A DNA stretch of 64,000 nt from Bacteroidota bacterium (GTDB taxonomy: Bacteria; Bacteroidota; Bacteroidia; B-17B0; Aurantibacillaceae), in the NCBI GenBank assembly GCA_013697245.1, contig JACCXH010000057.1:1-64000 (forward strand). The letters run 5' to 3'. The position numbers and the translations under genes were made by a program. The stretch's first letter is position 1; every line of letters starts with the position of its first letter. Under the pieces are notes generated by a model. The model saw only the letters and a program-made list of their open reading frames with translations, did no database searches and was not told the DNA's origin. Of the stretch, positions 35,043 through 41,721 are shown in pieces.

Positions 35043-36533
35043 TCAAATTTCTTTACGCATTCTTCCAACAGGTATTTCTAACTGTTCTCGGTATTTGGCA
35101 ACCGTTCTGCGGGCAATATTATAACCTTTTTCTTTTAAGATATTGCAAAGTTCGTCATCGGTATGCGGATGCTTTTTATCCTCCGCGCCAATACAATCCT
35201 GCAATATTTTTTTGATCTCGCGGCTGCTTACTTCTTCACCACTGTCAGTGCTCATACTTTCACTAAAAAAAGTTTTTAATAAAAAAGTACCATAAGGCGT
35301 TTGCACATATTTGCTATTTGCCACCCGCGAAACCGTAGAAAGATCTAAATTAACCTTACCTGCAATATCCTTTAGGATCATTGGTTTTAATTTGCTCTCA
35401 TCGCCGCTTACAAAATAATCGTGCTGGTAATCTAAAATAGCATGCATACATAATGCCAGTGTTGCGTGACGCTGTTGTAAAGCTTCAATAAACCATTCGG
35501 CGCTTTCAATTTTACTTTTAATAAAACCGGTGGCCTCTTTGGCAGACTTATCTTTATTTTTAGAATACTCACGCAGCATTTCGTAATAATCGCGGCTAAT
35601 TTTAAGATCCGGTAAATTCCGGCCGTTAATACTCAGCTCAGGAATCCCGTCATTAACTGCAATAAGAAAATCAGGAATAACAGCAGTAAAATTATTTTCT
35701 TTGCTTTCGCTATTACCAGGCCTTGGATTTAAATGCTTAATAACATCAATAATATCTTTTAACTCTTCGTTCTCGATATGTAAACGTTTTAAGATCTTAT
35801 CGTAATGTTTTTTTGAAAACTCTTCCATTTGATATTTAATCACATCCATGGCCTGCGAGATCTCTTTTGTTTTTTCGGTTTTTCTTTCCAGCTGCAGCAT
35901 TAAACACTCCTGTAAATTTCTGGCGCCAACACCCGGCGGGTCAAAACCTTGGATCTGTTTTAAAACTTTTTCCAGTTCAGGAATTGTTGTGGTAATGTTG
36001 TAATTAAAAGCAAGATCATCAACAATCAATTCTAATTCTCTTCGTAAATAGCCATCCTCATCCAAACAACCAATTAAATAAACACCAATTGTATACTCAA
36101 TGTCGCTGGTGTCTTTTAACCCAAGTTGTTGTTCCAGTTGTTCCTGAAAACCTATACCTTCTACCACCACAAACTCTCGCGTTTCATCATCGGCGCCTTT
36201 GTTAGAGATCTCGTATTTATAGGAATCCAACTCTTCGGCATCCATATAATCTTCCATCACGACATCGTTCTCAATTACTTTACTTTCATCTTCTTTCGCC
36301 TCTCCCTGTTCATCAAACTCCACGTCCTCACCTAATTCAGGCTCTTCGTTGCTATATAACTCTTCTTCTGTAGATGTATCAAGATCTTCTTCCAAGGCCG
36401 GATTAGCCTCTAACTCTTCTTTAATACGTTCTTCAAGGGCAAGCGTTGGCAACTGCAACAATTTCATTAACAGAATTTGTTGTGGCAATAATTTTTGTGA
36501 GAGCCTAAGCTGTTGCGAATGCTTGAGTGCCAT
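35043..36533 (-). CDS. rpoN: RNA polymerase sigma-54 factor
   Basis: The 496-residue protein has region I with the Gln-rich activator-interaction helix (LRLSQKLLPQQILLMKLLQL, residues 6-25), a very acidic region II (~45-95), the core-binding region (~115-300), and the DNA-binding region with KDIAGKVNLDLSTVSRVANS. The RpoN box is ARRTVAKYREQL near the C-terminus. No enhancer-binding activator gene is in the window. It follows tyrS by 2 bp on the same strand, so the two are probably co-transcribed. Confidence 0.96.
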   Translation of the reverse strand: MALKHSQQLRLSQKLLPQQILLMKLLQLPTLALEERIKEELEANPALEEDLDTSTEEELYSNEEPELGEDVEFDEQGEAKEDESKVIENDVVMEDYMDAEELDSYKYEISNKGADDETREFVVVEGIGFQEQLEQQLGLKDTSDIEYTIGVYLIGCLDEDGYLRRELELIVDDLAFNYNITTTIPELEKVLKQIQGFDPPGVGARNLQECLMLQLERKTEKTKEISQAMDVIKYQMEEFSKKHYDKILKRLHIENEELKDIIDVIKHLNPRPGNSESKENNFTAVIPDFLIAVNDGIPELSINGRNLPDLKISRDYYEMLREYSKNKDKSAKEATGFIKSKIESAEWFIEALQQRHATLALCMHAILDYQHDYFVSGDESKLKPMILKDIAGKVNLDLSTVSRVANSKYVQTPYGTFLLKTFFSESMSTDSGEEVSSREIKKILQDCIGAEDKKHPHTDDELCNILKEKGYNIARRTVAKYREQLEIPVGRMRKEI

Positions 36534-36535
36534 AA

Positions 36536-37816
36536 TTAATTAACGATACAGAGAAAATAATTTTTTTTGCCTTTTTGTATTAAAATGTATTTGTTGTTTA
36601 TTAAAAAAGAAGAATTAATTGTCAGTTCATGCGTTTCAACTTTTGCTTTGTTAATGCTTACACCGCCGCCCTGTATGAGTTTTCGCGCTTCGCTTTTACT
36701 GGGCAGCACTTGTGTTTTTTCTGCCAGAAAATCTAAGACATTAAAAGAATTTTCGAGTTCACTTTTTATGAGATTAAATTGCGGCACACCATCAAACACA
36801 TCTAAAAAGGTTTCCTCATCCAGGTTCGACAGGTCTTTCAATTCTCCGTTAAATAATACAGTGCTGGTTGCAACCGCCGCGTTATAGTCAGCTTCACTGT
36901 GTACGATCGTTGTTAACTCTTTTGCTAGCGCTTTCTGCAACACCCGTTTGCCCGGATCTTTCTCGTGTTCAGAAATTAAATTTTCAATTTCTTCTTTCGA
37001 TAAAAAAGTAAAGATCTTAATAAAATTTTTCGCATCTACATCGCTTGTGTTAATCCAATATTGAAAAAAACGATAAGGCGAGGTTTTTGTTTTATCCAAC
37101 CAAATATTTCCGCTTTCTGTTTTCCCAAACTTTGTGCCGTCTGCTTTTTTAATTAATTGCGTGGTTATGCCATAGGCTTCGCCGCTTGCTTTTCTACGCA
37201 CCAGCTCAGTGCCACTAGTAATATTTCCCCACTGGTCAGAGCCGCCCATTTGAAGCTTGCAGTTCTTGTGTTTGTATAAATAATAAAAATCGTAGGCTTG
37301 TAATAACTGGTAGCTAAACTCGGTAAAGCTCATCCCGTTCTCTAAACGGTTCTTTACAGAGTCTTTTGCCATCATATAACTAACGGTTAGGTGCTTGCCA
37401 ATATCGCGAATAAAGTTTATGAAAGAATAATCTTTCATCCACTCGTAATTGTTCACCAACTCTGCGCCGTTTGCGCTGCCGTTAAAATCTAAGAATTTTT
37501 GTAACTGGTTTTTTATGCCATTCACGTTTTTGTTTAATGCGTCCTCATCTAATAAATTTCGCTCGGCCGATTTGCCGCTTGGATCGCCTATCATGCCGGT
37601 TGCACCCCCCACAAGGGCAATAGGTTTATGCCCCGCTTTTTGTAAACGTAACAATGTAAAGATCTGCGTTAAGCTGCCAATGTGCAATGAGTCGGCTGTT
37701 GGATCAAAACCGATATAACCTGTTACAACTTCTTTTTTAAATAATTCTTCAGTGCCGGGCATTATATCTTGTAATAGCCCGCGCCAGCGTAATTCTTCTA
37801 TAAAATCGGTCTTCAT
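36536..37816 (-). CDS. tyrS: Tyrosyl-tRNA synthetase
   Basis: This 426-residue class I enzyme charges tRNA-Tyr. HIGH-type signature: [13 protein letters not shown]; then [17 protein letters not shown] (tyrosine/ATP site), [20 protein letters not shown] and the KMSKS-like [11 protein letters not shown]-terminal S4 RNA-binding domain (about 360-426) is included. Length matches bacterial TyrS. It is the upstream gene of the tyrS-rpoN pair. Confidence 0.96.
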
Positions 37817-39162: not shown

Positions 39163-40236
39163 TCAGTCTTTTTTATAAACCATTACATTAAAAACGTAAG
39201 GGTTAATGCGTTTTATTTGTTCGGTACGCTTCAGCCCCTTAAGCGTTTGCTTTTTAGGTTGATTTAAAAGGGCAGTTTTAATACTATCCACCGTTAAAGT
39301 GGCAATAGACTTAAAGATCTCATTAGATTTTATAGCAAAACCGGTAGCGTCTGCACCCGTGATCTTGCCCCTTATAACGCCAATCACATTTCCCTGGTCG
39401 TTCAATAACGGCCCGCCGCTATTACCGGGGTTTACCGGGATAGAGATCTGGTACATGGTAGTATCATTATAATAACCACTTAACGAGCTCAAAGAACCTT
39501 CGCCGTATACAACATCTTTTCTTGGATAACCCAATGTATATACCTTTTCGCCAATATCGGTAGGCTTTTCGCTAAAAGTAAAAGGCACATCCCAGGCTTT
39601 TACCACTTTTGAGTCAATAATTTTTAAAATAGCAATATCTAATTTAGGATCAATTAAAACCACTTCGGTCAATGTTCTTTCTAAAGAACCATTTTGAACA
39701 AATACGCTATCAGCACCATTTACCATGTGTGAACTGGTAATAATATAACCTTTGTTGTTTAATGCAAAAGCACTACCCTCAAGGTTTGCAGGCGCAGGCA
39801 ACGGTTTTTGACTACCTTCTTTAATACCCTCTACAATTGCATCGCTTGACGCTTTTAATGTTAATCCTAATTCGGTGATCTCGTTACTGGTTTGTTTAAC
39901 ACCGGGGCTAACGGCCGCGATGGTACTTAGCACCACAATGGCTGCGGTGCTGGCTGCTACCAGAACAGTTTTGCCGTAACGTTTTACAAAACCTTCTTCT
40001 TTATTGATAGAAATGATCTTAGCATCATTTCCAAAGGCCTGCGTATGTATAGCTTTTAATTTATTTTTAAAAGCATTTCTTTTTTCGCTTTTGTTTAAAG
40101 CGGCAATAAGATCCTTATGTTGTTCAAAGGCAGTTGCAAATTCACTATCTGAATTTAATCTTGCTTCAAATTCCTTGGCATCACCGGCATTCAGCTTTCC
40201 ATCTAAATAATCATCAAATAAATCTATTGGTCTCAT
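39163..40236 (-). CDS. Anti-sigma-like membrane protein with HtrA-type protease
   Basis: The 357-residue protein has three parts. Residues 1-~70 resemble the cytoplasmic part of membrane anti-sigma factors (LFDDYLDGKLNAGDAKEFEA, then a repeat of acidic helices). A membrane helix lies at about 90-110. The periplasmic part (~130-310) is a trypsin/HtrA-type serine protease with an apparently complete triad: His170 in ITSSHMV, Asp200 in DPKLDIAIL and Ser273 in PGNSGGP. There is no PDZ domain. Its ATG overlaps the stop of the ECF sigma gene (ATGA), the usual sigma/anti-sigma arrangement. I infer a sensor that binds the sigma factor inside and proteolyses or senses outside. Confidence 0.85.
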   Translation of the reverse strand: MRPIDLFDDYLDGKLNAGDAKEFEARLNSDSEFATAFEQHKDLIAALNKSEKRNAFKNKLKAIHTQAFGNDAKIISINKEEGFVKRYGKTVLVAASTAAIVVLSTIAAVSPGVKQTSNEITELGLTLKASSDAIVEGIKEGSQKPLPAPANLEGSAFALNNKGYIITSSHMVNGADSVFVQNGSLERTLTEVVLIDPKLDIAILKIIDSKVVKAWDVPFTFSEKPTDIGEKVYTLGYPRKDVVYGEGSLSSLSGYYNDTTMYQISIPVNPGNSGGPLLNDQGNVIGVIRGKITGADATGFAIKSNEIFKSIATLTVDSIKTALLNQPKKQTLKGLKRTEQIKRINPYVFNVMVYKKD

Positions 40237-40823
40237 TTTCTTTCTATTTGTTCAACTGGTAATAATTCAAAAAAACTTTTCTTTAATCGTTGTAAACATT
40301 TGTACTTCTGATTTTTTGCATTGTCGGCATTGGTGTAGCCAAATTTTTCGGCTATCTCATCCATGCTTAACTTTTGCACGTAAAAATCTTTTATCAATGT
40401 GGCGCAAGGTTCTCCAAGCTCTACAAGGCTTTGATTCATTTTTTCAAGCTCTGCTTCTTTGGTCTCATACACGGTCATATCTTCCGTCACATCTACCACT
40501 TCATTTTCATCATCGTCTTTAAACAAAAACGTTTTGCTGTTCTTTTTCAACTGCTTTAGCCAAAGGCGTTTTGCAATGGAATAAATATAAGTTTGCAGCT
40601 GACAATTAAGCGTAAAGCCCGGCTTTTGTACGTTTTCATATAAAACAATAATTGTTTCCTGGTAAATATCTTGTGCCGCTTCTTGTGTGCCGCTATTGTT
40701 TACAATAAATTTAAGAACGAGGTTGTAGTACTTTTTGTACAAAACGTTTAATACTTCATTATTTCCGGTGCGTAAACCATCAATAAATTGATCTTCGGTG
40801 AACTGCACTTTGGTTTTGGACAT
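40233..40823 (-). CDS. ECF-type RNA polymerase sigma factor
   Basis: This sigma-70 family factor has 196 residues from the ATG at 40823; an upstream ATG at 40859 would add 12 residues but sits at the promoter. Region 2 (~10-75) has LYKKYYNLVLKF, AAQDIYQETIIVLYENV; an acidic linker with DDDENEVVDVTEDMTVYE follows. Region 4 (~120-180) has CATLIKDFYVQKLSMDEIAEKFGYTNADNAKNQKYKCLQRLKK, the helix-turn-helix. The coupled downstream gene is its likely regulator. A TACCTTTG -7 element is at 40857-40864 (minus). Confidence 0.92.
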   Translation of the reverse strand: MSKTKVQFTEDQFIDGLRTGNNEVLNVLYKKYYNLVLKFIVNNSGTQEAAQDIYQETIIVLYENVQKPGFTLNCQLQTYIYSIAKRLWLKQLKKNSKTFLFKDDDENEVVDVTEDMTVYETKEAELEKMNQSLVELGEPCATLIKDFYVQKLSMDEIAEKFGYTNADNAKNQKYKCLQRLKKSFFELLPVEQIERK

Positions 40824-40856
40824 AAACGCCTTGTTTAGGTTAATACTAAAATTATA

Positions 40857-40864
40857 CAAAGGTA
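40857..40864 (-). promoter_or_regulatory. Putative -7 promoter element of the ECF sigma gene
   Basis: On the minus strand this reads TACCTTTG, a TAnnTTTG match 33 bp before the sigma ATG. It overlaps one of two AAGGTAACC copies (40859-40867 and 40907-40915). Confidence 0.45.
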
Positions 40865-41051
40865 ACCTTTACCGAAATAAGATTTATGAATTATGATTTA
40901 AAAAATAAGGTAACCACACTAAATTTAAAATTTATTATACTGATTTTCAACTGATTATAAAATTATTTCTAAAACCTACGATTTAATTGGGTTACTATTT
41001 TTAAAAAAAGGGATAAATAGGAAATTAACCAACAACTTAAAAAAATCTAAA

Positions 41052-41270
41052 ATGAAAAAAGTATTCTCAATCGTAATGGTAGCTGTATTTGCTACTGCTT
41101 TCGTTGCTTGTGGTCCTTCTGCAGAAGAAAAAGCTAAAATGGAAGAAAGAGCTAAACAAGTAGCTGATTCAATCGCTGCTGCTATTAGCGAATCAATGAA
41201 CCAAGTTCCTACTGAAACTGCTCCTGCTGATACTGCTGCTGCAACTACAGAAACTGCACCTGCAAAATAA
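41052..41270 (+). CDS. Small lipoprotein, paralogue 1
   Basis: The 72-residue protein has a lipoprotein signal with lipobox FVAC (Cys20), followed by GPSAEEKAKMEERAKQVADSIA, an amphipathic helix, and a Thr/Ala/Pro/Glu-rich tail. Codon choice is markedly uniform (GCT for Ala, GAA, AAA, ACT), unlike its paralogue 242 bp downstream, which suggests high expression. A terminator follows. Function is unknown; the format resembles short helical outer-membrane lipoproteins. Confidence 0.85.
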   Translation: MKKVFSIVMVAVFATAFVACGPSAEEKAKMEERAKQVADSIAAAISESMNQVPTETAPADTAAATTETAPAK

Positions 41271-41455: not shown

Positions 41456-41491
41456 TTTGCGATACTTCCGTGCTATTATTTCCTATCTTTG
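41456..41491 (+). promoter_or_regulatory. Putative promoter of second small lipoprotein
   Basis: TTTG at 41456-41459 and TATCTTTG at 41484-41491 fit the Bacteroidota promoter, with a 24-bp gap (one longer than usual). The ATG is 20 bp further. Confidence 0.5.
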
Positions 41492-41511: not shown

Positions 41512-41721
41512 ATGAAAAAAGTATTTTTATTTTTTAGTGTGATCTTTACAATTGCATTTACTGCTTGTGGCCCTGCTGCCGAAAGTCGCGACTCTATGAT
41601 GACGCGCGCTAAACAAGTTCAGGATTCAATTGCAAACTCTATTAAAACAGCTATTCAGGAAGTTGAAGCAACACCAAATGCGGTTGTAGTAAAAGATACT
41701 ACAAAAGTACAACCCAAATAA
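41512..41721 (+). CDS. Small lipoprotein, paralogue 2
   Basis: This lipoprotein has 69 residues from the ATG at 41512 (the longer open frame from 41470 would bury the signal peptide). Lipobox FTAC (Cys19), then GPAAESRDSMMTRAKQVQDSIA, clearly the same family as the lipoprotein at 41052: both share CGP.AE..., RAKQV.DSIA and a Val/Thr/Lys tail. It has its own promoter and ordinary codon use. Function is unknown. Confidence 0.82.
   Translation: MKKVFLFFSVIFTIAFTACGPAAESRDSMMTRAKQVQDSIANSIKTAIQEVEATPNAVVVKDTTKVQPK

Follow-up and report, generated by a model that had tools for sequence, protein, structure and literature searches.

A predicted anti-sigma factor with its own HtrA-type protease domain, encoded beside an ECF sigma factor gene in Bacteroidia

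Introduction

How is an ECF sigma factor held and released when the gene that follows it encodes an anti-sigma-like domain, a membrane helix and a serine protease in one polypeptide? Such a gene pair lies in the window, i.e. the whole stretch of 64,000 nucleotides of Bacteroidota DNA that was analysed. Only 6% of the ECF sigma factors of Bacteroidota are located near a recognisable class I anti-sigma factor (PMC7406223), and their control is therefore largely open. The module described here, consisting of the sigma factor, the hybrid protein, a promoter and a short list of lipoprotein targets, represents one conserved answer. It appears to be a compact, testable design for sensing envelope stress, with the brake and an intact envelope protease joined in one protein. 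The parts are of known kinds; a fusion with an active HtrA-type protease, the promoter and the lipoprotein regulon were not found described in the literature searched, and the ECF group classifications may already list the pair.

Gene arrangement and distribution

The two genes of the module are located as follows.

40233..40823, minus strand: ECF sigma factor gene, 196 aa, ATG start at 40823, stop at 40233
39163..40236, minus strand: hybrid gene (anti-sigma-like domain, membrane helix and HtrA-type serine protease), 357 aa

The genes overlap by ATGA, with the hybrid gene second. The sigma protein scores above the cut-off with both TIGR02937 (1.6e-18, 66.9 bits, cut-off 42.9) and Sigma70_r2 (1.7e-9, 37.7 bits, cut-off 24), and the combination of superfamily and region 2 matches with a short protein is that of an ECF sigma factor. 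The coordinates of the coding sequences and these two matches confirm the ECF sigma gene with an overlapping hybrid gene that had been reported in a preliminary description of this DNA. Of the span given there, the end of the hybrid gene at 39163 is retained, and the right edge at 40864 is moved: it sits near an alternative TTG start at 40859, which falls inside the predicted promoter (40840-40867), so that the ATG at 40823 is the likely start of the sigma gene. The genes rpoN (sigma-54) and tyrS adjoin each other at 35043-37816 of the window on the minus strand, and this pair stays close to the module in many genomes of the genus.

Of 87 genomes of the order, 80 contain a full-length ortholog of the hybrid, always as one copy; among the 62 genomes with good completeness the count is 61. 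Among 395 Bacteroidia genomes drawn evenly over the class, 59 (about one in seven), belonging to 10 families, contain a full-length match with an E value of 6e-78 or better. These matches are followed by a clear gap, below which proteins matching the protease part only start at 2e-52 and weaker. Outside the class, no full-length member turned up in 395 genomes drawn from the phylum, the single match there being to the protease part only, and the only match in a search of plasmids was a serine protease resembling that part. The reading of the module as a species-specific oddity was dropped given the ortholog counts in order and class. The sigma gene is located directly upstream of the hybrid gene in 42 of 42 close loci (the copy at L027 is short or broken) and in every distant locus but one, which is cut off by a contig edge; in this respect the hybrid gene adjoins its ECF sigma gene, as do the genes of class I anti-sigma factors (ASDI). 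A constant separate anti-sigma factor had been named as evidence against the fusion acting on its own; downstream of the hybrid gene, none was seen in 56 loci. The survey of other Bacteroidota genomes that had been proposed thus supports, through the occurrence in 10 families, the conserved triad and the adjacency, a single-polypeptide architecture that reaches far beyond the window.

Features of the hybrid protein

The hybrid protein comprises the following parts.

40033..40236, minus strand: N-terminal class-I-like anti-sigma domain, residues 1-68, helical
39904..39972, minus strand: predicted membrane helix, about residues 89-111, from hydropathy and aligned transmembrane columns
39952..39960, minus strand: V-A-A motif, residues 93-95, with a predicted site-2 cut after Ala95
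39289..39789, minus strand: trypsin/HtrA-type protease domain, residues 150-316, with the triad H170/D200/S273
39166..39240, minus strand: conserved C-terminal tail, residues 333-357, in place of a PDZ domain

Taken alone, the N-terminal part of the window's hybrid gives weak matches to anti-sigma models, below their curated cut-offs. Such sub-cut-off matches recur across 35 diverse hybrids: NF052375 matches 12 of them (best 1.2e-4), PRK13920 (putative anti-sigmaE) 7 (best 6.8e-4) and zf-HC2 10 (best 7.7e-4; the other 25 give no zf-HC2 match at E 1), and each non-anti-sigma family matches no more than 2 of the 35. The Hx3Cx2C zinc motif, which occurs in a subset of ASDI only, is absent, there being no Cys in residues 1-80. 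Class I anti-sigma factors are built as a three-helix bundle plus a fourth helix that contacts sigma-4 and sigma-2, and the predicted helices of the hybrid (residues 3-11, 17-29 and 31-68) fit this pattern in a model of low confidence (PMC7406223). AlphaFold2 gave a mean pLDDT of 56 and a pTM of 0.48 for the hybrid alone (17-row alignment) and of 58 and 0.33 for a sigma-hybrid fusion, obtained by reading through the in-frame stop of an ortholog; both models are of low confidence, and no claim on the complex, the linker or the tail is built on them. The distance correlation between the sigma factor and the N-terminal domain, with the protease controlled for, is 0.49, a value compatible with co-evolution and not decisive. 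A search of PDB sequences with the N-terminal profile returned only PPAR ligand-binding domains, a similarity between helical sequences that was attributed to chance. The recurring matches to anti-sigma models fit an inhibitor, as do the gene order, the type II topology and the V-A-A motif, and the N-terminal domain is very probably an anti-sigma factor. Hybrids of family f68 (L125, L126 and L131) lack the first ~37 residues and keep the later helix, the promoter, the sigma gene and the protease; going by PMC7406223, the helix that is kept would include the sigma-2-binding part.

In the membrane helix, Ala94-Ala95 is invariant in 58 of 58 distant homologs and the remaining columns are variable. 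The preceding residue is Val in 34 and Ile in 16 of the 58, and the following residue is Ser in 44. RseA of Escherichia coli (MG1655 record) has V-A-A at residues 106-108 followed by Cys109, and RseP cleaves it between Ala108 and Cys109 (PMC10024687; PMC6963605). V-A-A followed by Ser in the hybrid matches this cut site, V-A-A followed by Cys, and occupies the site-2 position of the membrane helix as in RseA-type substrates of regulated intramembrane proteolysis (RIP). From its sequence, the hybrid is predicted to be cleaved after Ala95, and the source genome encodes a site-2 protease homolog. The V-A-A end exposed by an RseP cut serves as a signal for ClpXP.

The periplasmic part matches Trypsin_2 at residues 154-287 (2.1e-22, 80.8 bits, cut-off 27.6) and has the His/Asp/Ser triad of HtrA/S1C enzymes. 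H170, D200 and S273 are conserved without exception in the aligned homologs, 42 close and 58 distant ones, which amount to about 95 different proteins; no catalytically dead hybrid was seen among these. This invariance indicates that catalysis is selected for, and does not indicate which substrate is cleaved. No PDZ model matched in a domain model search of the protein. The intact triad and the missing PDZ domain of the preliminary description both hold. The nearest NCBIfam models are those of MarP, Do and HhoA-type enzymes, the best being MarP at 4.6e-26, but with 92 bits against a cut-off of 250. The DegS model gives 48 bits (cut-off 423), and DegS has a PDZ domain and is a separate polypeptide. 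In a structure comparison the match list was filled by the protease domain, with HtrA1, Deg9 and PDZ-deleted DegS among the PDB matches (Z up to 11.7). The juxtamembrane linker between helix and protease contains no conserved cleavage motif in the aligned homologs.

The C-terminal tail is shared with secreted paralogous proteases that have no anti-sigma part, and it therefore belongs to the protease, which it may regulate in place of a PDZ domain. Secreted S1C proteases with this tail and with neither PDZ domain nor anti-sigma part are located at L039:1483-3126(-), L068:4986-6053(-), L069:4359-5609(+) and L070:4992-6662(-), and one such protease has a MORN_2 match. They apparently form a separate Bacteroidia protease family, which may have been the source of the fusion. 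Besides the hybrid, the source genome encodes two other S1C proteases.

Promoter and predicted targets

Upstream of the sigma gene, the following features were recognised.

40840..40867, minus strand: GGTTAC-N15-GTATTAA, a predicted autoregulatory promoter 16 nt upstream of the ATG of the sigma gene
40990..41017, plus strand: GGTTAC-N15-GGATAAA, a promoter of this type in facing orientation, 34 nt upstream of the lipoprotein ATG
41052..41270, plus strand: small divergent lipoprotein, 72 aa, predicted sigma target
41512..41721, plus strand: second small lipoprotein, similar to the first, with an ATG at 41512 (open reading frame listed from GTG at 41470)

The regions upstream of the sigma gene in orthologs have in common GGTTACCTTT-N11-GTATTAA. 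The pattern GGTTAC-N14..16-NNATWAA, derived in part from loci later counted with it, is present upstream of the sigma gene at 54 of the 56 distant loci, compared with 0.125% of shuffled regions; the remaining two loci have near matches. A facing copy is present in 35 of the 56. An additional GGTAACC (GGTTACC on the sigma strand) is located between the two promoters at 40909-40915 of the window and also in several orthologs; it is possibly a tandem promoter. Across 12 genomes a stricter pattern yielded 32 sites in 12 of 12 genomes, and a pattern with scrambled -35 yielded 6 sites in 4. A looser pattern was uninformative (38 matches against 49 in the reversed control), and the stricter ones were used. 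The genomes of family f1 are AT-rich, and there the strict pattern gives a raw count near that of its reversed control; the case for f1 thus rests on position and target type.

The 32 strict sites comprise 8 before the sigma gene, 2 inside genes, 1 unexamined and 21 others. Of these 21 intergenic sites, 19 precede lipoprotein genes, as called from N-termini (a few long ones were judged by eye); 11 of the 21 belong to the module itself, and 8 of the 10 elsewhere precede lipoprotein genes. In the same loci the base rate of lipobox-bearing ORFs is 1.7% among those of at least 100 aa, the rate for ORFs of 60-99 aa being inflated by the divergent lipoproteins themselves. The scan was made with exact patterns in 12 genomes, and the resulting target list is incomplete and not clear of chance matches. 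For the source genome, the sigma factor is predicted to act on its own operon and on the genes of the 72-aa lipoprotein at 41052, of a DUF4349 lipoprotein on C57 and of two further lipoproteins, one of 161 aa on C73 and one of 286 aa on C60. A small lipoprotein ORF (48-110 aa) reading away from the sigma gene is present in 43 of 55 loci and 9 of 10 families, one of the 43 (L113) looking spurious.

The small divergent lipoproteins are of low complexity and have a Lys within the last three residues in 29 of 43 cases, in 16 of them as the terminal residue, which recalls the C-terminal Lys of Lpp. The DUF4349 lipoprotein (PF14257) is preceded by a promoter of the sigma type in two genomes of the genus (noted at L167, G000:C57:114105-114132), and it has GPSAE after the Cys, as does the window's small lipoprotein.

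There is good reason to think that the sigma factor governs a lipoprotein regulon; the genes that it activates appear to be chiefly its own and those of a few small lipoproteins anchored in the membrane. The abundance of lipoproteins among the targets suggests a signal related to lipoproteins or the outer membrane, and with it a lipoprotein-centred stress response, a poorly known area of the envelope biology of Bacteroidota. With the promoter sequence defined, a reporter assay would be easy to set up. Three features absent from the preliminary description bear most on the working of the system: the promoter, the regulon of lipoproteins and the RseA-like V-A-A.

Proposed mechanism and alternatives

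The sequences themselves show the architecture and how well it is conserved, as well as the promoter and the predominance of lipoproteins among the targets; for the binding of the sigma factor, the sites and sequence of the cuts, self-cleavage and the signal, we infer the following. The module would be an autoregulated envelope-stress switch, in which a RIP-controlled anti-sigma factor with its own periplasmic protease governs lipoproteins. The cytoplasmic N-terminal domain of the hybrid would hold the ECF sigma factor at the inner membrane, and the periplasmic part would be an active HtrA-type protease without PDZ domain. In response to a signal from the envelope, which may have to do with lipoproteins, the protease would make the first cut in the juxtamembrane linker of the hybrid itself, most likely with one protomer cutting another. 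The stub left behind would then be cleaved in the membrane after V-A-A by an RseP-type site-2 protease, as is RseA, and degradation of the released V-A-A-ended fragment would free the sigma factor. The free sigma factor would transcribe its own operon and a few lipoprotein genes from GGTTAC-N15/16-GTATTAA promoters. This model is based on the sigma adjacency, the invariant triad, the anti-sigma matches, the Ala-Ala pair, the site-2 homolog, the promoter and the lipoprotein targets. Counted against it are the sub-cut-off level of the anti-sigma matches, the low-confidence models, the motif-less linker and the truncation in f68, and also that PDZ-deleted DegS is reported to be active without ligand, which raises the question of how the hybrid protease would be kept inactive. 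As a whole it is held with the scales about level. That the hybrid protease is the built-in first cutter is judged slightly short of an even chance. With no conserved motif in the linker, and since HtrA enzymes are not sequence-strict, self-cleavage is possible and unproven.

The main alternative accepts an active protease that leaves its own linker uncut. The protease would digest periplasmic substrates, e.g. misrouted lipoproteins, whose load alters the state of the anti-sigma domain, and any first cut would be made by another protease, such as the DegQ-like or secreted S1C enzymes of the genome. The invariant triad, the motif-less linker, the two other S1C proteases and the lipoprotein targets are all in keeping with this account; however, it needs an extra protease from outside the module, and the hybrid protease alone is always linked to the sigma gene. 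It is regarded as possible, at the lower end of the plausible. An extension of the switch model, in which the hybrid is its own site-1 protease, cutting between protomers, and the induced lipoproteins feed back as its ligands or substrates, is considered unlikely; if true, the circuit would measure the lipoprotein status of the envelope.

A protease with an unrelated housekeeping role, merely tethered by the fusion to an N-terminal domain that alone controls the sigma factor, would agree with the secreted paralogs that have protease and C-terminal tail and no anti-sigma part, but is very improbable in view of the joint occurrence of sigma gene and fused protein in 10 families, with no catalytically dead version seen. 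Finally, an N-terminal domain acting as a positive co-factor, by bringing the sigma factor to the membrane or stabilising it there, would suit the weak similarity to anti-sigma domains and the f68 members without the first ~37 residues, but it is given hardly any weight, as the gene order, the type II topology, the recurring anti-sigma matches and the RseA-like V-A-A favour an inhibitor.

Comparison with known systems

The proposed switch can be compared with several described systems. With the membrane-anchored serine proteases of the MarP family and the DegS type the hybrid shares its protease-domain matches, whereas its membrane anchor follows an anti-sigma domain. The Dma proteins of Bacteroides and Phocaeicola (PMC13088901, PMC9308784) likewise belong to a Bacteroidota ECF pair linked to envelope stress in which the anti-sigma factor has a large envelope domain; however, they end in an outer-membrane beta-barrel, and the hybrid ends in a protease and a short tail. 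The RsgI/SEAL anti-sigma factors of Firmicutes use their own periplasmic-side domain as first cutter, a role for which the hybrid's protease is a candidate, and in RsgI this first cut is followed by RseP and ClpXP (PMC12203970). RsgI relies on an autocleavage domain, whereas the candidate in the hybrid is a true serine protease and could act in trans; no SEAL/RsgI domain was matched in the hybrid, whose periplasmic part matches trypsin families. Another close parallel is the RpoE/RseA/DegS/RseP system (sigma-E) of E. coli, which has an ECF sigma factor, a single-pass type II anti-sigma factor, an HtrA-type protease domain and V-A-A in common with the module. No RseB-like gene was seen beside the module. 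Unlike in RseA/DegS, protease and anti-sigma factor form a single polypeptide in the hybrid, the protease lacks a PDZ domain, and the promoter and the lipoprotein-rich regulon differ. If the protease makes the first cut itself, the roles of RseA and DegS would be merged in one protein.
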